A stretch of 64,000 bases of DNA from Aliarcobacter skirrowii CCUG 10374 (GTDB lineage: Bacteria > Campylobacterota > Campylobacteria > Campylobacterales > Arcobacteraceae), in the NCBI RefSeq assembly GCF_003544835.1, contig NZ_CP032099.1, positions 1,426,001 through 1,490,000 of the forward strand, given 5' to 3'. The first letter of the stretch is position 1. Every line of letters begins with the position of its first letter. The notes under the pieces were generated by a model. It ran no database searches. It was given only the letters and a program-made list of their open reading frames with translations, and was not told where the DNA came from. Positions 21,709-30,977 of the stretch are shown here, one piece after another. The position numbers were made by a program, and so were the translations under genes.

Positions 21709-24285
21709 TTAAGATATTTTTGCTACTATCTTTTCATCTTCTAAATCAAAATCAACACAACTTTGCTCTTTTATTTTATCTTCTAAAATAAGCTCAGCTA
21801 GTTTATCTTCAACTATTTCATAAATTGCTCTTTTTAGTGGTCTTGCTCCATAAACTGGATCAAATCCTATTTTTGCAATATACTCTTTTGCCTCTTTTGA
21901 TAGTGATATTTTTATATCTTTTTCAAGTAATTTTTTCTCTATATTTGCAAATAAAATATCAACAATATTTGTAATAGCATCTAAATTTAACTGCTCAAAA
22001 ATTACAATATCATCAAGTCTATTTAAAAACTCTGGTCTAAAATGAGCTTTTAACTCATCCATTACAGCTTTTCTTCTTTGCTCTTTATCGCTAATTTCAA
22101 TTATTCTAGCACTTCCAATATTTGAAGTTAAAATTATAATTGTATTTTTAAAATCAACTGTAACACCTTTATTATCAGTTAATCTTCCATCATCTAAAAC
22201 TTGTAAAAGTATATTAAATACATCTGGATGTGCCTTTTCAACCTCATCAAAAAGTATTACACTATAAGGTTTTCTTCTAACAGCTTCAGTTAACTGCCCA
22301 CCCTCTTCATATCCAACATAACCTGGAGCTGCTCCTACAAGTCTTGAAACAGCATGTTTTTCCATATATTCACTCATATCAAATCTAATAAGTGATTTTG
22401 CATCATCAAATAAAAATTTTGCTAATGTTTTTGCACTCTCTGTTTTTCCAACTCCTGTTGGTCCTAAAAATAAAAAACTTCCTATAGGACGATTAACTTC
22501 ACTAAGTCCAGCTTTATTTCTCTTAATTGCTCTGCTTATTGCTTTGATTGCTTCATCTTGACCTATAACATCTTTTTTTAGAACCTCTTCAACTCTTAAA
22601 ACTTTTTGCTTTTCACTATCAAGCATCTTATTTACAGGAATTTGTGTCCATTTAGAGACAATTGTTGCTATGCTTTCTTCATCAACACTATTTCTTAAAA
22701 GAGTTCCCTCTTTTTGCATAATTGCCCATTTCTCTTCATTCTCTTTTATTTTTTTCTCTAACTCTGGAATATCTCCATACTCTATTTTTGCAGCCTCTTC
22801 AAATTTTGACTCTCGTTTTGCAATATTTGCTTTAGTTTTAAGCTCATCAATTTTTGTTTTTAACTCACTTGTTAAATTAAATGTATGTTTCTCATTTTCA
22901 AATCTAGCTTCAAGATTTTGTTTCTCTTCATTTTTATTTGCAAGCTCTTTTTCTATCTCTTTTATTCTATCTTCATTTTTTTGGCTTTTTTCCATTTTTA
23001 AAGCCTCTTTTTCAACTTGCAAAGTTTGAATCTCTCTTTTTATTGTTGAAAGTGCTGTTGGTTCACTCTCAATTTGCATTTTAAGTTCAGCTGCTGCTTC
23101 ATCTATTAAATCTATTGCTTTATCAGGTAAAAATCTATCTGTAATGTATCTATTTGATAATTTTGCAGCTGCAACTAATGCACTATCATTTATGGTAACA
23201 TTGTGATGAGTTTCAAGTTTCTCTTTAATACCTCTTAGAATTTGCAAAGCCTCATTTACAGTTGGTTCATCAACTTTAACAGGTTGAAATCTTCGCTGCA
23301 TTGCTTGATCTTTTTCAAAATATTTTCTATACTCTTTTAGTGTTGTTGCGCCAATTGTGTGAAGTTCACCACGTGCAAGACTTGGTTTTAAAATATTTGC
23401 AGCATCCATACTTCCTTCACTAGCACCTGCACCTATAATTGTATGAATCTCATCTATAAATAAAATTATATTCCCATCTTTTTTAACTTCATCAATTACA
23501 GATTTAAGTCTATCTTCAAACTCTCCTCTATATTTTGCACCTGCAATAAGTGAACTCATATCAAGTGCAATTACCCTTTTATTTAATAAAGATGTTGGAA
23601 CATCTTTTGAAACAATTCTTTGAGCCAAACCTTCAGCAATTGCAGTCTTTCCAGTACCTGGTTCTCCAAGCAATATTGGATTGTTTTTTGTTTTTCTTAT
23701 CAAAATTTGCATCATTCTGTTTATTTGCTCATCTCTTCCAATAACGGGATCTAGTTTTCCATCAATTGCTTGTTTATTTAAATCTATTCCATATTTATTT
23801 AAAGCTTCCAAATTATCATCAGCACTTTGATTATCTATAGTTTTTCCAGCACGAATTGCCTCAAGCTCTTTTTTTGCCTCTTTTAAATCTATATATTTTC
23901 CTAAAATTTCTTTGATTGTTGGCTCATCGAAGTTTGCTATAAGCCATGAGTCAATTGCTATATAACTATCTCCCAAACTTGACATCTGTCCAGCTGCTTT
24001 TTGAAAACTATCGTATAATTTTTTTGATACTTTAATATTCTCTTTTGTAACACTACTTACAGTTGGAAGTCTACTTGCATTTGATTTTGCTTCAAGTTCA
24101 ATTGCAGCTTTGTTTACATTCATTTTATTTAATAGTTGATTTAATACTGAATTTGTATTTGTAAGCAAAGCCCACAAAATATGTACTACTTCTATCTCTT
24201 GATTTTTATTGTGCAAAGCTAGATTTAAACCACTATCAATAGCTTCTCTTAGTTGATTTGTCATTTTTTCAAATATATTATTCAT
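21709..24285 (-). CDS. clpB: ATP-dependent chaperone ClpB
   Basis: 858 residues. ClpB works with DnaK to rescue aggregated proteins. The order is N-domain (1-140), first AAA+ module (Walker [11 protein letters not shown]), the long coiled-coil M domain (about 390-530, Lys/Glu-rich) that separates ClpB from ClpA/ClpC, and second AAA+ module (Walker [30 protein letters not shown]). The start codon directly abuts a CIRCE operator and a consensus promoter lies upstream, so heat-shock control by HrcA is likely. Confidence 0.97.
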
Positions 24286-24312
24286 TTAGCACTCCTAATG
24301 TTTAATTGCTAA
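24286..24312 (-). promoter_or_regulatory. CIRCE element (HrcA operator) at clpB start
   Basis: On the minus strand TTAGCAATT, nine bases, GAGTGCTAA. CIRCE is TTAGCACTC-N9-GAGTGCTAA: the right half matches 9/9, the left half 7/9, and the spacing is exact. It touches the ATG, and its GGAG doubles as the ribosome site. HrcA bound here would block the clpB leader. Confidence 0.85.
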
Positions 24313-24316
24313 TTGG

Positions 24317-24345
24317 ATTATATAACTTTAGTCAGATAATGTCAA
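24317..24345 (-). promoter_or_regulatory. Consensus sigma-70 promoter of clpB
   Basis: On the minus strand TTGACA (24340-24345), 17 bases, TATAAT (24317-24322): both hexamers perfect and the spacing optimal. Transcription would start about 24310, inside the CIRCE element, so HrcA could also occlude initiation. Confidence 0.85.
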
Positions 24346-24460
24346 GTATTACATAATATTATTTGAATATATAGAATTTTTTATAACTCTAAAAGAATTT
24401 GAGAAAAGATAAAATAAAAGTGTTACTCAATCTAAGGTATTAACTGAATAAAAAAAGTGT
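24346..24460. other. Gap between clpB promoter and CDI array, with possible IS end
   Basis: AT-rich sequence with no reading frame. At 24457-24477, crossing into the last codons of the neighbouring cdiA fragment, the minus strand reads TGACCCCAAGATGGTAGACAC. Its composition differs from the surroundings and it resembles the termini of IS3-family elements from memory. No transposase is present. Confidence 0.3.
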
Positions 24461-25114
24461 CTACCATCTTGGGGTCATTCCAACATTTATATTTATTTCA
24501 TTTCCTGTTATTGAGCTTAGAACTGTTTGTTTACTTTGACTTACTCCATTATTCATAGAAATTCCAGAGTTTACAGATGATACATCGCCTATATCTATGC
24601 TTGGTACTCTATGTCCTTCTTTTCCTCCACTCCCAAATCCTATTCCTGCGTTTACATTAAATCCTGATTGATTTGAAGATGATTCATCTCTTAAGCTTTC
24701 AACTATTAGATTATTCCCTACATTTAAATTTAGTGTATCTTCTGCTCTTAGATTTGCTCCTTGGAATACTGCATCATTTCTTACATCTACATACATATTA
24801 TTTGCTAGTAGTTGTGAGTTATTATTTATTACACTATTACTTTGGAAACTTTGTTTTTCTCCACCTAATGATGCAGTCTCTCCTCCACCTCCATACATTG
24901 TTAGGTTTACACTTCCATTTATACTCTTTTTATCTTGGCTTGTTTGGTTTGTATCTTGAGAAGCTTTTACATTTAGGTTCTTTGTATTTATATTCAAACT
25001 ATCATTTGCTACTATATTTGTATTTGTACTTAATTTCTCATCTGCATTTATAATGATATTTTTTCCATTTAGGTTTAACAATAAATTTTTATTTACTATT
25101 GGGTTTATACTCAA
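24461..25114 (-). pseudogene. cdiA backbone fragment (distal repeat region)
   Basis: 217 codons from a TTG start (AAAGGTAAAAATTG). From about residue 35 it is a diverged copy of part of the intact CdiA: NVKASQDT, SVNLTMYGGGGETASLGG, ESLRDESSSNQSGFNVNAG and SSVNSGISMNNGVSQSKQTV all have near-identical counterparts encoded around 34010-34560. It has no signal, TPS domain, linker or toxin. After NINVG the match stops and the frame ends MTPRW in foreign-looking sequence, so it is a remnant at the far end of the array. Confidence 0.8.
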
Positions 25115-25117
25115 TTT

Positions 25118-25651
25118 TTACCTTTTATTTTTGAAATAATTTTCTGAAGAAACTTTTCTTTTAAAAATTAACAATATTAATTTGGAAAAATAAATTGCAA
25201 ATAAAATTTGTACCACAGTTAAGATAAACAAAAATATATCAAATTTAGTATATGTCATATTTGCAATACCTGTTTTAAATCCAAAATAATCCCTAAAAAA
25301 GAAGACTAATATTACAATCAAAAATACACCATTATACTTAAGAAAATACTTGTAGTTTATTCTTATTATATTTAATGAAACAATACTATACATAGGAAAC
25401 AATAAACCAATTATTATAAATAAGAAATTGGACATATGTCTATCAGTCTCAGAATTTGATAAAAAATAAAAAATAAAAAATAAAAAATAAAAAATAAAAA
25501 ATATTTTTTTACCTTCACTATTATTCAAAAAAAGAAGCATCCAAAATAGTATTAACATTTTAGTTAATACTTCTATATTTGAATTATTATCTATATAAAC
25601 AAAAATAAAGATTATGTATACACAAATTATTGCTATAATTTTATTTTTCAT
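25118..25651 (-). CDS. Polytopic membrane protein, candidate orphan CDI immunity protein
   Basis: About 177 residues, nearly all hydrophobic (five or six predicted TM segments), extremely AT-rich. The start ATG 25651 overlaps the stop of the upstream gene, like other toxin/immunity junctions here. A frame extending upstream to 25744 is just an overlap with the neighbour. No family recognised. Position directly after a lipase-toxin tail suggests immunity function by context only. It contains a six-copy 7-bp repeat, so its frame could vary by slippage. Confidence 0.5.
   Translation of the reverse strand: MKNKIIAIICVYIIFIFVYIDNNSNIEVLTKMLILFWMLLFLNNSEGKKIFFIFYFLFFIFYFLSNSETDRHMSNFLFIIIGLLFPMYSIVSLNIIRINYKYFLKYNGVFLIVILVFFFRDYFGFKTGIANMTYTKFDIFLFILTVVQILFAIYFSKLILLIFKRKVSSENYFKNKR
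25461..25502. repeat. Heptanucleotide microsatellite (AAAAAAT)x6
   Basis: Six perfect tandem copies of AAAAAAT within the membrane-protein gene at 25118-25651. The unit is not a multiple of three, so gain or loss of one copy shifts the frame. It encodes a Phe/Ile/Tyr/Leu-rich stretch within a TM segment. Confidence 0.9.
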
Positions 25652-26135
25652 TAAACTGCTTCCAAACATCTTTACTATCCATATTTGAATGGCTTTTCTT
25701 TGGGTGATTCCCACTTTCCACTTCAACATTATCAACTTTATCACTATTTATTTTTCTAAATATAGAAAAAATATAATATATAAATGAAATTATAAGTTGT
25801 AATATGACAAGTGAAAAAAGTATATTACATACTGAAAATCCAAATAAAAATTCATAACATATATAATCAGAAGTTATTATTGTGCCTTTTATAAAATAAT
25901 CAATTAAGATATTTATAAATGTAGGTAAAAATAAAATAAATATTCTTATTTTATGTAATATTAATGTTAAAATAGAAATGAAAGCCAATGGTTCTATAAT
26001 TTGATAAAGAAAATGTATAAAAAAGCCAATATAACCCCAAAACTCTCCTTTTAAATAAACTATTATTATAAAAAATATTAAATTTAAAAGTAAAAACAAA
26101 TATATAAAAACAAATACTGACTTATTTAAATACAT
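25641..26135 (-). CDS. Membrane protein fused to lipase-toxin tail
   Basis: 164 residues. The first ~125 form four hydrophobic segments, like an immunity protein. The last ~30 (NVEVESGNHPKKSHSNMDSKDVWKQFNEK region) are a copy of the C-terminal end of the lipase-like toxin at 26977-27852, including its candidate catalytic His. The two parts are in one frame, which looks like an accidental fusion made when a toxin body was deleted between an immunity gene and the next toxin tail. Function as immunity protein is inference. Confidence 0.5.
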   Translation of the reverse strand: MYLNKSVFVFIYLFLLLNLIFFIIIVYLKGEFWGYIGFFIHFLYQIIEPLAFISILTLILHKIRIFILFLPTFINILIDYFIKGTIITSDYICYEFLFGFSVCNILFSLVILQLIISFIYYIFSIFRKINSDKVDNVEVESGNHPKKSHSNMDSKDVWKQFNEK

Positions 26136-26152
26136 TTTAAATTATTACCATA

Positions 26153-26395
26153 CTATTTATTTTTGTTATTAAAATTAATGCTTTTATCATTAAATTGCTC
26201 CCATACTTTAACACTATCTAAATCAGAATGACTATTTATTGGATGATTTCCACTTTCTACTCTAATATTTTTTGTTCCATCTTGTATTCTTGAATCATAT
26301 CCAAGTGATGACAAATTTGTATAATAAATAATAACTTACTCATTTCTCTTCCTTTTTATCTTATTAAAAAATAAATTATACTTGTCATTCCGTGT
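26153..26395 (-). pseudogene. Mosaic remnant: toxin 3' end, immunity 5' end and lipase-toxin tail
   Basis: Three scars in a row on the minus strand. About 26345-26395 resembles, with small indels, the 3' end of intact cdiA (NLFNKDTKEEK region). From ATG 26343, the first 11 codons equal the start of the immunity gene at 32422. At 26310 this switches to the tail of the lipase-like toxin (IRVESGNHPINSHSDLDS, then VWEQFND), in a different frame and ending TAG at 26153. A 45-bp stretch, 26311-26355, is identical to 32390-32434. No functional product is expected. Confidence 0.75.
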
Positions 26396-26764
26396 TTATA
26401 TATCTGACTCATATTCTTCTCCTATAAAACAATCAAAACTTTCTATATCAATTTCTATCTTGAATTTTTCAAATAGTGTCTTTTTTATTTTAGGTGTAAC
26501 ATTATAATATCCACTAAGATACTCATTTCCATATTCATCTATAAAAGTGTGTTCTTTATCTGGAAAAATTTTCAGTAGAGTTTCTTCAATATCTTTTAAA
26601 GTACAATTTTTAATGGGTACTATTTTTATTAAACTTTCGTCATTATTGCTATAGTATTTAACCTTTCTTGAACTTCTTTTATATCTAGATTTTTTAAGTT
26701 TTAATTTATCTTTTTTTTTATGAAAATAGCTGATTGCAACTAACATTTTAGGTTTATTTTTCAT
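26396..26764 (-). CDS. Small basic protein downstream of lipase-toxin module
   Basis: 122 residues, soluble, with a lysine/arginine-rich N-terminal half (KKKDKLKLKKSRYKRSSRK) and an acidic C-terminal half ending GEEYESDI. No family recognised. Its ATG overlaps the stop of the 2-TM protein upstream, so it is translationally coupled to the lipase-toxin module and could be a second immunity or accessory protein. That role is inferred from context alone. Confidence 0.5.
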   Translation of the reverse strand: MKNKPKMLVAISYFHKKKDKLKLKKSRYKRSSRKVKYYSNNDESLIKIVPIKNCTLKDIEETLLKIFPDKEHTFIDEYGNEYLSGYYNVTPKIKKTLFEKFKIEIDIESFDCFIGEEYESDI

Positions 26765-26984
26765 TTTTATAACTTTCCCATAAAAAATAAATTAATTTAA
26801 TAAATAGTAAAAATAGTTGTAAAGGTAATAATAAAAAAATTATTATTGAAAATAAAATTAAAGAATTGTAACCAACATCTTCGGTACTTAAATTAAAAAT
26901 ATTTAGTTGTAATATTAAAATTATCAATGCTATAAGAACTATTAAATAAAAAGGAATTAATATATTTGGTAAATTTTTAATCAT
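26754..26984 (-). CDS. 2-TM protein, candidate immunity to the lipase-like toxin
   Basis: 76 residues with two hydrophobic segments (about 8-28 and 42-68) and a short charged tail. The ATG overlaps the stop of the lipase-like toxin by 8 bp, the normal arrangement for cdiA-CT/cdiI pairs. No homology recognised. A membrane location would fit neutralising a lipid-attacking toxin. Confidence 0.6.
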   Translation of the reverse strand: MIKNLPNILIPFYLIVLIALIILILQLNIFNLSTEDVGYNSLILFSIIIFLLLPLQLFLLFIKLIYFLWESYKNEK

Positions 26985-27852
26985 TAAATTGTTCCCATAC
27001 TTTTTTGCTATCTAAATCTGAATGACTATTTTTTGGATGATTTCCACTTTCTACTTCTATATTTTGAACTTTAGGGTTATTTATATTTCTATCTCCCATT
27101 CCTATTTTATCTATATTAACTCCAAAAACTCCAAATTGCACATCACTTCCTCCTAATTTTTGAACCACATCACTTGTATCATATACATTTTTAATTGATG
27201 AATTTTCACTAAATTTACTATAATCTATTGGATAATCCTTTCTTACTGGTGTTCCCATAAATACTACATTATCTATCTTTTTATCTCCTTGATAAAACTG
27301 TGTAAAATCTTTAATTACATTTCCACCGTGAGAGTGTCCTATTATATTTAAAGGTTCTCCATCTTTAAATTCATAGTTTTCTACAAATTCACTTAATCTC
27401 AATCCAGCATTAGCTCTTGACCAAAAACTATTATCAGCACCACTACCATTTTCTGTTCCATCTTTACCACTCCAATCAAACTGATAAACTGTTTCATTAT
27501 AAGTTTTACCAACGGCTTCTAAAAAATCCTTATCTGCATCTTTTGGTGATGAGTATGTTCCGTGTACAAATATTGTCAAGTCATCAATTCTACCATCACC
27601 ACTATTAGCTTTAGCTACATCTTGCAGATACTGTTTTGTATTTGTATTTAGTATATTTATATCATTTATTGAGTTCAAACTATTTGTCTTATTACTATCT
27701 AGTTTTACATAGTTATATGTATTTGATGAAAAATCCAATCCACTTGATGAGTATTTACCAAACAAATCTGAGTACTCTTCTTGCAGTTGAGTTGTTTCTC
27801 TTAGGTATGTCTGTCCTTGGTTTTGTCTTACATGGGCTACTTCATTATTCAC
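26977..27852 (-). CDS. Orphan CdiA-CT: pre-toxin linker plus lipase-like alpha/beta-hydrolase toxin
   Basis: 291 residues from a GTG start with a weak ribosome site. Residues 1-92 are linker type B, beginning NNEVAHVRQNQGQTYLRE: the copy is cut inside the HEXXH motif (first His lost). Variable sequence starts after GRIDDL (87-92). The toxin has a strand-plus-HGT oxyanion motif (FVHGTY, 95-100), nucleophile elbow GHSHGG (Ser174), Asp225/228 in VYDTSD and His272/277 in NHPKNSHSD: a full set for a Ser-Asp-His lipase or esterase. It lacks signal and TPS domains, so it could be delivered only after recombination with cdiA. Confidence 0.75.
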   Translation of the reverse strand: MNNEVAHVRQNQGQTYLRETTQLQEEYSDLFGKYSSSGLDFSSNTYNYVKLDSNKTNSLNSINDINILNTNTKQYLQDVAKANSGDGRIDDLTIFVHGTYSSPKDADKDFLEAVGKTYNETVYQFDWSGKDGTENGSGADNSFWSRANAGLRLSEFVENYEFKDGEPLNIIGHSHGGNVIKDFTQFYQGDKKIDNVVFMGTPVRKDYPIDYSKFSENSSIKNVYDTSDVVQKLGGSDVQFGVFGVNIDKIGMGDRNINNPKVQNIEVESGNHPKNSHSDLDSKKVWEQFND

Positions 27853-27854
27853 AG

Positions 27855-28076
27855 TTAATCTTTTTTAGAGCTTTTATAAATAGAAATACCTTGAACTATG
27901 GCTACAATAGAACCTATTATAATATAAGCTGTTCCTACTAACAGAGATGATTCTCCATCTTTGTCCCCCCATTTATATTCCACTAAAGAAGGATATAAAA
28001 TAGTAAGTATCCCTGCTAAAATAAAGAATAATCCTGTTATAAAAATATTTGTTCTTGAGTAAATATTATTTCCCAT
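27855..28076 (-). CDS. 2-TM immunity candidate (copy 1 of a paralogous pair)
   Basis: 73 residues from ATG 28076, chosen because AAAGGAGGAT is ideally spaced before it; a longer frame starts at 28094. Two TM helices. It shares the C-terminal IIGSIVAIVQ.ISIYKS.KKD pattern with the protein at 30983-31207. It overlaps the toxin gene at 28066-28980 by 11 bp. The paired toxin copies are paralogous too, which supports a cognate toxin/immunity assignment. Confidence 0.65.
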   Translation of the reverse strand: MGNNIYSRTNIFITGLFFILAGILTILYPSLVEYKWGDKDGESSLLVGTAYIIIGSIVAIVQGISIYKSSKKD

Positions 28077-28980
28077 TACTATCCTCCTTTTCATACATTT
28101 TATTATTTATATAACCTAATGCTCCAGGAATAGAAGTAGGATGTGTTATAAAATTCTCTCCTGAATAATAATCATATCCTGCACTAAAAACTGGTGAAAA
28201 AGGAGCTGTGATTCCTTTTTCAAAAATTGTCATTGCTGTATCTATAGTTAATCTTCTATAATTTTCTGGCATATTACGATAAGCAGTTGAAATATCTTGT
28301 GCTATATCATCTCTTTTTACATACAAAGTATTTAAATCATTACCAAATTGATTTATTACTTCTCCTGTTTTATTTATTACATTTCTCATTGGTTCATTCA
28401 TCTTTTTATCTATCTGCCCCTCTATTCCCCTATGTATATCATTCTCATCTGTTGGTGCATTAAGATAACTTTGAAAAGCACTTACTCCCAATATTGCTAT
28501 TGGAATTACTGGTAAATCATCTCCACCACTTTTATTAATATTAGCAAACTCTTTATTATTAGCATTTAATAAATTATTTGTATTAAATACTGATGGATAC
28601 TCTGTTACTACTCCATTATTATGATTATTTGTACTTGCTAGGTTTCCACCATTTACTATATTCAATGCTCCATCTGTATAGTATGCTAAGTTATCCCCAA
28701 AGTTTGTTGCATAGATATTTTGGTCTTTATCATTTGCAACAAATATATTATTTTGTTTATCCATATCATGCATTATCTCATGTCCCGTTGATGATACTAA
28801 TTCACTTGTTGAGTTAGCATATTTATCATTTACATAACTTGTTTGTGTATTTGAATCATAATATCCTTTTACTTGTGTATTATTTGTTCCTATATTTGTA
28901 TCTTCTTTTGTAATTATTGCTATACTATTTGATACTAGGTTTGACAATAGATTTTTATTTAATATTAGGTTTATGCTCAA
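28066..28980 (-). CDS. Orphan CdiA-CT module, linker A plus unknown toxin (copy 1)
   Basis: 304 residues from a TTG start (opening MSINLILNKNLLSN). Residues ~35-165 are linker type A, nearly identical to intact CdiA, including HEXXH as HEIMH at 67-71. After KSGGDDL comes a ~135-residue unknown toxin domain (PVIPIAILG, then DENDIHRGIEGQIDKKMNEP and YRNMPENYRRL). The same domain occurs at 31197-31805. No secretion signal. The membrane nature of the partner hints at a toxin acting in or at the inner membrane; the activity is not recognisable. Confidence 0.65.
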   Translation of the reverse strand: MSINLILNKNLLSNLVSNSIAIITKEDTNIGTNNTQVKGYYDSNTQTSYVNDKYANSTSELVSSTGHEIMHDMDKQNNIFVANDKDQNIYATNFGDNLAYYTDGALNIVNGGNLASTNNHNNGVVTEYPSVFNTNNLLNANNKEFANINKSGGDDLPVIPIAILGVSAFQSYLNAPTDENDIHRGIEGQIDKKMNEPMRNVINKTGEVINQFGNDLNTLYVKRDDIAQDISTAYRNMPENYRRLTIDTAMTIFEKGITAPFSPVFSAGYDYYSGENFITHPTSIPGALGYINNKMYEKEDSNGK

Positions 28981-29004
28981 TTTTTACCCTTACTTTTTAC
29001 TTCT

Positions 29005-29033
29005 GCATTTCCAACGAGGATGTTGTGAACGAG
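29005..29033. repeat. REP-like palindrome
   Basis: A short GC-richer imperfect hairpin: CCAAC, loop GAGGAT, GTTG, with flanking TTT/GAA pairing and one bulge. It looks like a decayed copy of a palindrome I recall as dispersed in other proteobacterial intergenic regions. It lies in the 78-bp gap between two CDI modules. Confidence 0.4.
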
Positions 29034-29058
29034 AAAAAATTAATCCCATACTTTTTTA

Positions 29059-29286
29059 CTATTTTCTACTCTTATACTCATTCCACAATTCTTTAAATAT
29101 TGCTATTAGTATTCTAATACCCCAAATTACAAACTGGAATGAAAAAATAAAAATCCCAAATAAATATAAAAAAAAACCAGTATATCCTGCCGTTTCACTA
29201 TCATCAAAAATATATCTATTATGTTCCAGAACAAGCCCTAATACAATAAAAGAAAGCCCTATTAGAATAAATATATAATTACTCAT
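29059..29286 (-). CDS. Small 2-TM protein, candidate immunity
   Basis: 75 residues from ATG 29286, eight bases after AGG; longer in-frame starts overlap the upstream gene. Two TM segments (about 3-21 and 37-62) around a short loop (NRYIFDDSETAGY). It overlaps the previous small gene by 8 bp and lies second after the toxin module at 29460-30977. Immunity role by position only. Confidence 0.5.
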   Translation of the reverse strand: MSNYIFILIGLSFIVLGLVLEHNRYIFDDSETAGYTGFFLYLFGIFIFSFQFVIWGIRILIAIFKELWNEYKSRK

Positions 29287-29467
29287 TTTCATCACCTGTT
29301 TTCTTATTTTGTTCTTTGTCTTTACTATTATTCTTTTTTCTTTGATTATCAAGATAATAAATTAATATAACTATCACTGTTGAAATTGGAAGTATCCATT
29401 CTAAATTTAGAAAGACATATATACCACTACCTTGTCTTGAACTTAAACCTGCAATAAGATTATTCAT
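29279..29467 (-). CDS. Small 1-TM protein, candidate immunity
   Basis: 62 residues from ATG 29467, preceded by GGAG inside the end of the toxin gene, which it overlaps by 8 bp. One TM helix (about 24-41) is followed by a strongly charged Lys/Asp/Glu tail (NQRKKNNSKDKEQNKKTGDE). No homology recognised. It is the first gene after the toxin, the usual place for cdiI. Confidence 0.5.
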   Translation of the reverse strand: MNNLIAGLSSRQGSGIYVFLNLEWILPISTVIVILIYYLDNQRKKNNSKDKEQNKKTGDENE

Positions 29468-30977
29468 TTTTTTCTCCAACTTTATTTATTTCATTAATTA
29501 TAATATTTGATGATTGGTTTACTGGATTATTTTTACTACCACCATACGCTGGAACAGTAACTACTTTTAAATTTAAATAATCAAACATAAGTCTTTGTTG
29601 GGGTGTCATTTTTGATGTATCTAAGTTATATAATTCATTTAAACTATTACCTAATCCAACAAAACCTTTACCAATATCTCTTTGGATTCTATTTACAAAA
29701 AGTTTATTTTTTTCTTCTTCTGTTTTTCCAGTCATTAAATAATTCATAGCTTGTTCAGGTGTTCCAACCATATATCCACCTATTTCATCAGGCTTTTTAT
29801 ATATAACCATTCCCTTTACATTTTTTATCATATCTTTAGCTTCATCATAACTCAAGTCATCAATTCTACCATCACCACTATTAACCCTAGATACATCTTG
29901 CAGATATTGTTTTGTGTTTATATTTAATACATTTATATCACCATATGAATTTAATCCATTTGTTTTATTTATATCTAGTTTTACATAGTTATATGTATTT
30001 GATGAAAAATCCAATCCACTTGATGAGTATTTACCAAACAAATCTGAGTACTCTTCTTGCAGTTGAGTTGTTTCTCTTAGATATGTCTGTCCTTGATTTT
30101 GTCTTACATGGGCTACTTCATGTCCTAGGGTATTTGAAGAGCTTAAAGCATTTTGATTATTTGTTTTATCAAGGTAGATATTTGAGTTTGTATTATCTTT
30201 ATTTGTATATGTTGAACCATATTTATCATTTAAAACAGCCATCTTCGCTTCTTCTATATTTACTCCATATGTACTTGCATATATTTGTGCGTAATCATTT
30301 ATTGCTTTATCTATTTGTTCTTGAGAGTAGTTTTGTTGATTTTCTAATATATTTATTGTTTGTCCATTATCATTTAAAGCTAAAGCTTTTTGTACATCTA
30401 AATCTTTTTGCACATCTCCTATATGATCAAATGTATCTTTAATATTTAAAGAATCTGAACTTACTACATCAGCTACTGCTTGTCCCAATCTTTTTGATCT
30501 TTCTACATCTTCAGCTATCTCTTTTCTTCCATCTTCTGTAAGAAGTCTTGTATCTAAAGTTGCATCTACTTTTGTTCCAGTTGAACTTGAGTACAAATCT
30601 TTATTTATAGCATTTACATCTTGGTTTAGTTTTGTTAAATCATCTGAGTTTTCAATATCTTTTATAGTGATATTTCCATTTCCCAAAGTTGCTAGGGTTT
30701 TACTAGCCTCTGTTTCTAATGAATTCTCAGAGTTATACCCTACACTTGATACATCTCCATTTACACTACTACTTACACTTCCACCTATTGATTTACTTGA
30801 TGAGTAAGAGCTATTTGATGAGTTTGCGAATGTCAGGGTATTTGTTGTTAGGTTTAGGTTATCACTATCACTAGCTAGAAGTGAACCTTTTAAGTGTGTA
30901 TTATTTCCTACATTTATATTTAAATAAGCATTTAAATTTTGAACAATTAAAAATATAGATAAGATAATATTTTTCAT
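29460..30977 (-). CDS. Truncated CdiA with its own signal peptide, linker B and unknown toxin
   Basis: 505 residues. A Sec-type signal (MKNIILSIFLIVQNLNA) is joined to CdiA backbone at NINVGNNTHLKGSL, skipping the TPS domain and nearly all repeats. Backbone (to ~160), helical region and linker B follow; HEXXH is intact as HEVAH at 286-290. After SGDGRIDDL the tip (~120 residues, SYDEAKDMIKNVKGMVIY, ending INKVGEKNE) is unrecognised. Without a TPS domain it should not use CdiB; it would reach the periplasm, if expressed. Confidence 0.65.
   Translation of the reverse strand: MKNIILSIFLIVQNLNAYLNINVGNNTHLKGSLLASDSDNLNLTTNTLTFANSSNSSYSSSKSIGGSVSSSVNGDVSSVGYNSENSLETEASKTLATLGNGNITIKDIENSDDLTKLNQDVNAINKDLYSSSTGTKVDATLDTRLLTEDGRKEIAEDVERSKRLGQAVADVVSSDSLNIKDTFDHIGDVQKDLDVQKALALNDNGQTINILENQQNYSQEQIDKAINDYAQIYASTYGVNIEEAKMAVLNDKYGSTYTNKDNTNSNIYLDKTNNQNALSSSNTLGHEVAHVRQNQGQTYLRETTQLQEEYSDLFGKYSSSGLDFSSNTYNYVKLDINKTNGLNSYGDINVLNINTKQYLQDVSRVNSGDGRIDDLSYDEAKDMIKNVKGMVIYKKPDEIGGYMVGTPEQAMNYLMTGKTEEEKNKLFVNRIQRDIGKGFVGLGNSLNELYNLDTSKMTPQQRLMFDYLNLKVVTVPAYGGSKNNPVNQSSNIIINEINKVGEKNE

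Follow-up and report, generated by a model that had tools for sequence, protein, structure and literature searches.

Two closely spaced operators indicate probable control of the clpB promoter of Aliarcobacter skirrowii by both HspR and HrcA, in a layout kept in most of the family

Our results suggest that the heat-shock promoter of clpB in Aliarcobacter skirrowii is very probably repressed by both HspR and HrcA, acting at two operators packed into some 60 bases. The promoter lies in a window of 64,000 nucleotides (contig NZ_CP032099.1, positions 1,426,001 to 1,490,000), and coordinates below refer to this whole stretch unless otherwise stated. The gene occupies 21709..24285 of the minus strand and encodes an ATP-dependent disaggregase of 858 aa. 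Its product matches TIGR03346 with 1183.1 bits, 49 below the curated cut-off of 1232.1, and this is still the best-scoring family. A ClpB search of 41 genomes, A. skirrowii included, gave a match in all 41, with a full or partial ClpB as the best match in 40; the best match in G034 was merely a weaker paralogue.

Read on the minus strand towards clpB, the upstream sequence is CTTGACA TTATCTG ACTAAAG TTATATAATCCAA TTAGCAATT AAACATTAG GAGTGCTAA ATG. The -35 hexamer TTGACA (24340..24345, minus strand) and the -10 hexamer TATAAT (24317..24322, minus strand) are separated by 17 bases, and the pair (24345..24317) agrees with the sigma-70 consensus at 12 of 12 positions, just as the first-pass annotation had described in reporting a perfect promoter immediately upstream of a CIRCE. 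That CIRCE-like HrcA operator, TTAGCAATT-N9-GAGTGCTAA (24286..24312, minus strand), lies flush against the clpB ATG (24285-24283, minus strand). Compared with the consensus used here, TTAGCACTC-N9-GAGTGCTAA, it has two mismatches among the 18 arm positions, both in the left arm. The ribosome-binding site AGGAG (24292..24296, minus strand) sits six bases before the ATG and within the CIRCE, for the most part in the right half, overlapping the right arm. The earlier description of a nearly complete CIRCE that holds the GGAG and abuts the start codon was right in coordinates and content. The likely transcription start, placed 7 bases after the -10 hexamer at 24310 (minus strand), would fall inside the left CIRCE half.

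It had also been claimed that such consensus elements are rare in this genome. For the promoter pair this holds in part: TTGACA-N17-TATAAT is uncommon, with 18 occurrences (11 + 7) in 1.97 Mb against 3 for the pattern read backward, but it is not unique to clpB. Among the best 60 of 71 promoter-like sites at positions 22000-30000, the clpB promoter is the sole 12/12 pair. Three identical perfect promoters (TTGACAAAGTAAGATTTTCCTATTATAAT) are found at G000:C1:886966, 1520814 and 1898395, and perhaps belong to repeated operons such as rRNA. Upstream of clpB (24461-30977, minus strand) there is a run of open reading frames, which we take to resemble pieces of a large haemagglutinin/CdiA-type protein. 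Within it, a stretch EVAHVRQNQGQTYLRETTQLQ... is repeated in the frames at 26977-27852 and 29460-30977, a pattern that presumably matches that of orphan toxin-tip and immunity cassettes. A plasmid search with positions 39001-64000 of the window returned no useful relative.

What the first reading of the clpB region missed is a HAIR-like sequence that shares the TTGACA. HAIR, the operator of HspR, is CTTGAGT-N7-ACTCAAG (PMC7464140), and it is imperfect in C. jejuni. The clpB site, CTTGACA-TTATCTG-ACTAAAG (24326..24346, minus strand), has 3 mismatches to this consensus among 14 arm positions. It overlaps the -35 hexamer and the spacer, ends 13 bases from the CIRCE, and the TTGACA of the promoter doubles as part of its left arm. 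In the whole genome, CTTGA-N9-ACTNAAG occurs exactly in two places only, before clpB and before the cbpA-hspR operon; when one mismatch is allowed there are 54 places, hrcA among them, against 40 in the backward control, which is little excess. The HAIR preceding cbpA-hspR is nearly perfect (CTTGATT-GACTTTG-ACTCAAG, with a perfect right arm). HspR itself is a MerR-type protein of 126 residues encoded directly after cbpA, and it scores 111.3 bits with NF047375, above the cut-off of 105. A second small MerR-type gene (L202:1465-1809) shows a weak likeness to HspR, 36 bits against the same cut-off of 105; it lies not far behind what we take to be a probable hisIE. Weak HAIR-like sequences with 4 mismatches are also seen upstream of the -35 in the three groES loci that were read (that of A. 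skirrowii, L181, together with L120 and L122), reminiscent of the HspR sites upstream at C. jejuni groESL.

The clpB CIRCE is the sole match in the window at up to 3 mismatches (shuffle mean 0.02). Genome-wide, this threshold gives 5 places, compared with 0 for the backward control, and all five sites precede chaperone genes: hsp20, groES-groEL, hrcA-grpE-dnaK, clpB and htpG, where groEL, dnaK and htpG carry the names we presume from their sequences. The site at 557824, where just a 100-residue open reading frame was listed, had been considered a chance match; this was discarded because the site precedes htpG. A loose GCA-N15-TGC scan was uninformative, with 138 places. The hrcA gene, which precedes grpE and dnaK, has a CIRCE of its own. 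Its product is recognised by NF003033 (E 1.1e-67; 228.5 bits, below the cut-off of 248) and by TIGR00331 (E 6.8e-22; 78.5 bits, below the cut-off of 197.2), and NF003033 scores fall below the cut-off in all 11 family genomes tested. By these profile matches, the HrcA of A. skirrowii is present but divergent. A search of the genome with the Pfam profile PF01628 gave no match for HrcA, which by itself would have pointed to an operator without a repressor; the region upstream of grpE and the NF003033 match show otherwise.

At the htpG and hsp20 promoters read (L182 and L180, with L195, L196 and L130 in relatives), the CIRCE is followed by a downstream dyad, CTTTA...TAAAG at htpG and CTTGATA-N7-TATCAAG at the hsp20 of G007. 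These dyads are possibly variant HAIRs, with the order of the two operators reversed. The idea that the HrcA regulon is wider than that of HspR, which came from hsp20 and htpG having a CIRCE and no good HAIR, was dropped as unproved since both promoters have these HAIR-like dyads downstream.

The same two operators were sought in clpB upstream regions from 148 genomes of the order. G066, with 1 base of upstream sequence, and G034, which has no ClpB at E 1e-200 and whose row came from the weaker paralogue, were dropped, leaving 146 genomes. The ClpB-matched G083 and G084 were left out as they provided no upstream sequence, and the HAIR match of G065, which falls within its CIRCE, was left uncounted. 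At E 1e-200, ClpB had no match in 10 of 139 order genomes. The family is represented by 31 genomes, 25 from the same genus and 6 from other genera. All 31 have a CIRCE before clpB at up to 4 mismatches, and 29 have a HAIR, always with a gap of 12-14 bp between the two (29/29); the two genomes without a clpB HAIR are also without detectable hspR. In the 29 genomes with both operators the HAIR has 2-3 mismatches, the CIRCE contains AGGAGTG in every case, and CIRCE mismatches number 2 in 25 sites, 3 in three and 4 in one, so the 4 of 29 with 3-4 mismatches are a weak point. Outside the family, HAIR precedes clpB in 93 of 115 genomes at up to 4 mismatches (94/116, of 147 genomes in all, if G034 is included) and in 59 of 115 at up to 3, and CIRCE in 7 of 115. 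In 8,820 shuffled windows, which preserve single-base composition only, there were 2 CIRCE matches at up to 4 mismatches, and 491 and 48 HAIR matches at up to 4 and up to 3 mismatches, respectively.

Conservation follows the same elements. With columns anchored on the CIRCE, the mean identity across the 29 family sites reaches 0.96 and 0.98 for the two CIRCE arms and 0.87 and 0.82 for the two HAIR arms, with 0.60 in the HAIR middle, 0.61 from -60 to -36 and 0.49 from -130 to -60. Note that the left HAIR arm shares its bases with the -35 hexamer and may owe some of its conservation to RNA polymerase, and that the right arm, with the lower value of 0.82, is another weak point, departing from the consensus at 24346..24326 (ACTAAAG). 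In a ClpB tree of 53 genomes, the family is joined with G031 (family f8, also with a CIRCE) at a support of 100/99. Because HAIR is common and CIRCE rare before clpB outside the family, the simplest history is that the CIRCE was probably added to an existing HspR-controlled clpB promoter before the family arose. Comparison lends good support to the earlier proposal that HrcA controls clpB: hrcA has its own CIRCE, all five CIRCEs precede chaperone genes, and every family clpB examined has a CIRCE. It is not the whole story: since a HAIR-like sequence lies across the "perfect promoter", control by HspR is equally indicated.

A paired arrangement is also seen at hrcA. The 30 hrcA loci supplied comprised 24 genus rows, one from another family (G040) and five that gave none. 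All 24 genus loci have a HAIR with 3-4 mismatches and a CIRCE with 2, at a gap of 13. In 13 of 20 further hrcA promoters a HAIR lies 13-14 bp before the CIRCE, the adjacent HAIR of G059 and G147 being their second HAIR match. The positions of HAIR over the -35 and of CIRCE behind the -10 mean that the promoter itself accounts for part of this spacing. The hrcA promoters of G027 and G032 (L323, L324) contain CIRCE-like dyads whose middle is seemingly one base off N9, and which the ungapped CIRCE pattern misses.

Genomes in which hspR was not detected bear on the function of the HAIR. Of 139 order genomes, 128 gave a match to hspR and 11 gave none, even at E 0.01. Nine of these have a readable clpB upstream region, with a HAIR-like sequence kept in six and absent in three (G065, G151 and G031). 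At clpB these three lack the right HAIR arm, and their CIRCE, with C at position 7, has 1-3 mismatches. HAIR is likewise absent at hrcA in G065 and G151; the former has one perfect CIRCE there and a second with 3 mismatches, the latter one CIRCE with 3 mismatches. In G031, a genome of about 270 contigs and 96% completeness, HrcA had no match at E 1e-10, which leaves its CIRCE without a known reader. Two of the HAIR-keeping genomes, G102 and G115, belong to one genus, are near-complete, and have a good clpB HAIR (L248, L249) despite giving no hspR match; HrcA had no match in either of them. On these profile searches, they are a real counter-example to HAIR loss alongside hspR loss. The other four HAIR-keeping genomes are 75-91% complete. 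Repeated, independent loss of hspR was considered but is not established by the ClpB tree, which permits one or two changes for G065, G151 and G031.

From these sequences we infer binding, repression, cooperativity and heat induction at clpB as follows. At normal temperature, both HspR and HrcA would repress the gene. HspR on the HAIR would cover the -35 and the spacer, and HrcA on the CIRCE would reach from near the transcription start up to the ATG, blocking the early transcribed bases. With the operators 13 bp apart, RNA polymerase would be blocked by either protein, and the two may bind the clpB promoter cooperatively, by analogy with the C. jejuni proteins. HrcA acts as a thermosensor, as the title of PMC8533110 also has it, and HspR is released through chaperone titration. 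Under heat stress both repressors would be released and the strong consensus sigma-70 promoter would fire.

Could one repressor be enough? If HrcA alone controlled clpB, the promoter would be merely strong and the HAIR likeness an accident of its -35, which needs TTGACA anyway; the 18 perfect promoter pairs of the genome fit this, as does the HAIR sequence retained in the near-complete G102 and G115 without detectable hspR. However, the right arm, ACTMAAG, lies in the spacer, where sigma-70 requires no fixed sequence, and yet it is preserved within the family and reappears in many others. It is also seen at hrcA, is perfect at the hspR operon, and is missing from the three genomes that have neither hspR nor a clpB HAIR. 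We thus regard control by HrcA alone as improbable. The converse, that HspR alone controls clpB beside a weak or vestigial CIRCE, is to us just as improbable. Under HspR only is how C. jejuni clpB is reported (PMC7464140, PMC12131804), and the left arm of the A. skirrowii CIRCE is imperfect. Against this, the CIRCE is present in 31 of 31 family genomes, no other measured segment is as well conserved as its arms, and the ribosome site accounts for part of the right arm but not for the left arm. Moreover, two mismatches are no more than functional CIRCEs of a Mycoplasma are reported to tolerate (PMC5138195).

It had further been suggested that the dyad could hide the ribosome site in RNA, and a temperature-sensitive hairpin over AGGAG is indeed conceivable from the overlap of AGGAG with the right CIRCE arm. 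With the start assumed 2 bases before the CIRCE, the 31 family leaders fold at a mean of -5.7 against -4.4 for shuffles; with the later start, they average -3.4 against -3.5. The window leader from 24314 folds at -3.7 kcal/mol (z -0.34), no better than shuffles, and with the start at 24310 the CIRCE arms no longer pair together. Folding of the clpB leader gave no stable hairpin pairing the ribosome site, the mark of an RNA thermometer. AGGAG is mostly unpaired, with an unpaired probability of 0.71 or 0.64 in the window leader, depending on the assumed start, and a mean of 0.64 or 0.62 in the 31 native leaders (lowest 0.30 and 0.28). The suggestion is therefore unsupported, and we consider such a hairpin highly improbable.

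Within the two-repressor reading, a further possibility, which we hold tentatively and think rather unlikely, is that HAIR and CIRCE have co-evolved as a single composite operator, in which decay of the CIRCE half near the HAIR would be tolerated because HspR holds HrcA in place. The spacing of 12-14 bp held in the family clpB promoters is consistent with this. So is position 7 of the HAIR-side CIRCE half: A or G replaces C there in all 29 family clpB promoters that have a HAIR, in all 24 hrcA loci of the genus and in 12 of the 13 other hrcA promoters with an adjacent HAIR. In the three genomes that lack both hspR and a clpB HAIR, position 7 is C at clpB, and it is C also at hrcA, where HAIR is absent, in the two of them that were read. 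Against the composite reading, C stands at position 7 beside a HAIR-like sequence at the hrcA of G040 and G051 and at the clpB of G025 and G028 (with 5 mismatches in the G028 HAIR), and the spacing is in part a product of the promoter itself. The htpG site of A. skirrowii has A at position 7 without a HAIR just upstream. Another idea, that the decayed left CIRCE arm is a device that frees the ribosome site, loses ground, as the hrcA sites of the 24 genus loci show this decay although their CIRCE has no AGGAG.

The proposed control of clpB combines features described separately elsewhere. In the model members of the order, HrcA is described as a co-repressor, with all of its regulon falling within that of HspR (PMC7464140). 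The C. jejuni groESL and hrcA-grpE-dnaK promoters likewise have two repressors, with CIRCE over the transcription start and 27 and 11 bp between the binding sites; HspR lies there mainly upstream of the core promoter, at -37 to -106 and -16 to -111 (PMC7464140). In A. skirrowii, by contrast, the HAIR is on the -35 and spacer, and the gene is clpB. HspR of C. jejuni protects the core promoter of clpB (PMC7464140), so in both species the HspR site overlaps the core promoter, but C. jejuni clpB is described under HspR alone (PMC7464140, PMC12131804) and A. skirrowii adds a CIRCE between the -10 and the ATG. C. jejuni HspR and HrcA bind Pgro cooperatively, with direct contact, whereas those of H. 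pylori reportedly bind independently (PMC7464140). CIRCE before clpB is shared with the Mollicutes (Spiroplasma melliferum), for which the available text of PMC5138195 describes no HAIR, and HAIR is shared with Streptomyces albus clpB, for which the citing text in PMC6102357 mentions no CIRCE. In an open-access collection, which leaves subscription journals mostly outside, we found no title on such control for Arcobacter with HrcA, HspR or clpB and heat shock.

What is new here is that the family apparently puts clpB under both repressors, in a compact arrangement that its different genera retain. As a caution for promoter annotation, a "perfect -35" may be half an operator. The order supplies natural clpB promoters with HAIR only, with HAIR and CIRCE, and with CIRCE only, and cooperativity between HspR and HrcA is therefore testable on natural DNA. 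This promoter series also suggests a route by which heat-shock control could shift between repressors. If the composite operator is real, the family would record both the building of a two-repressor promoter and its fall-back to one repressor.
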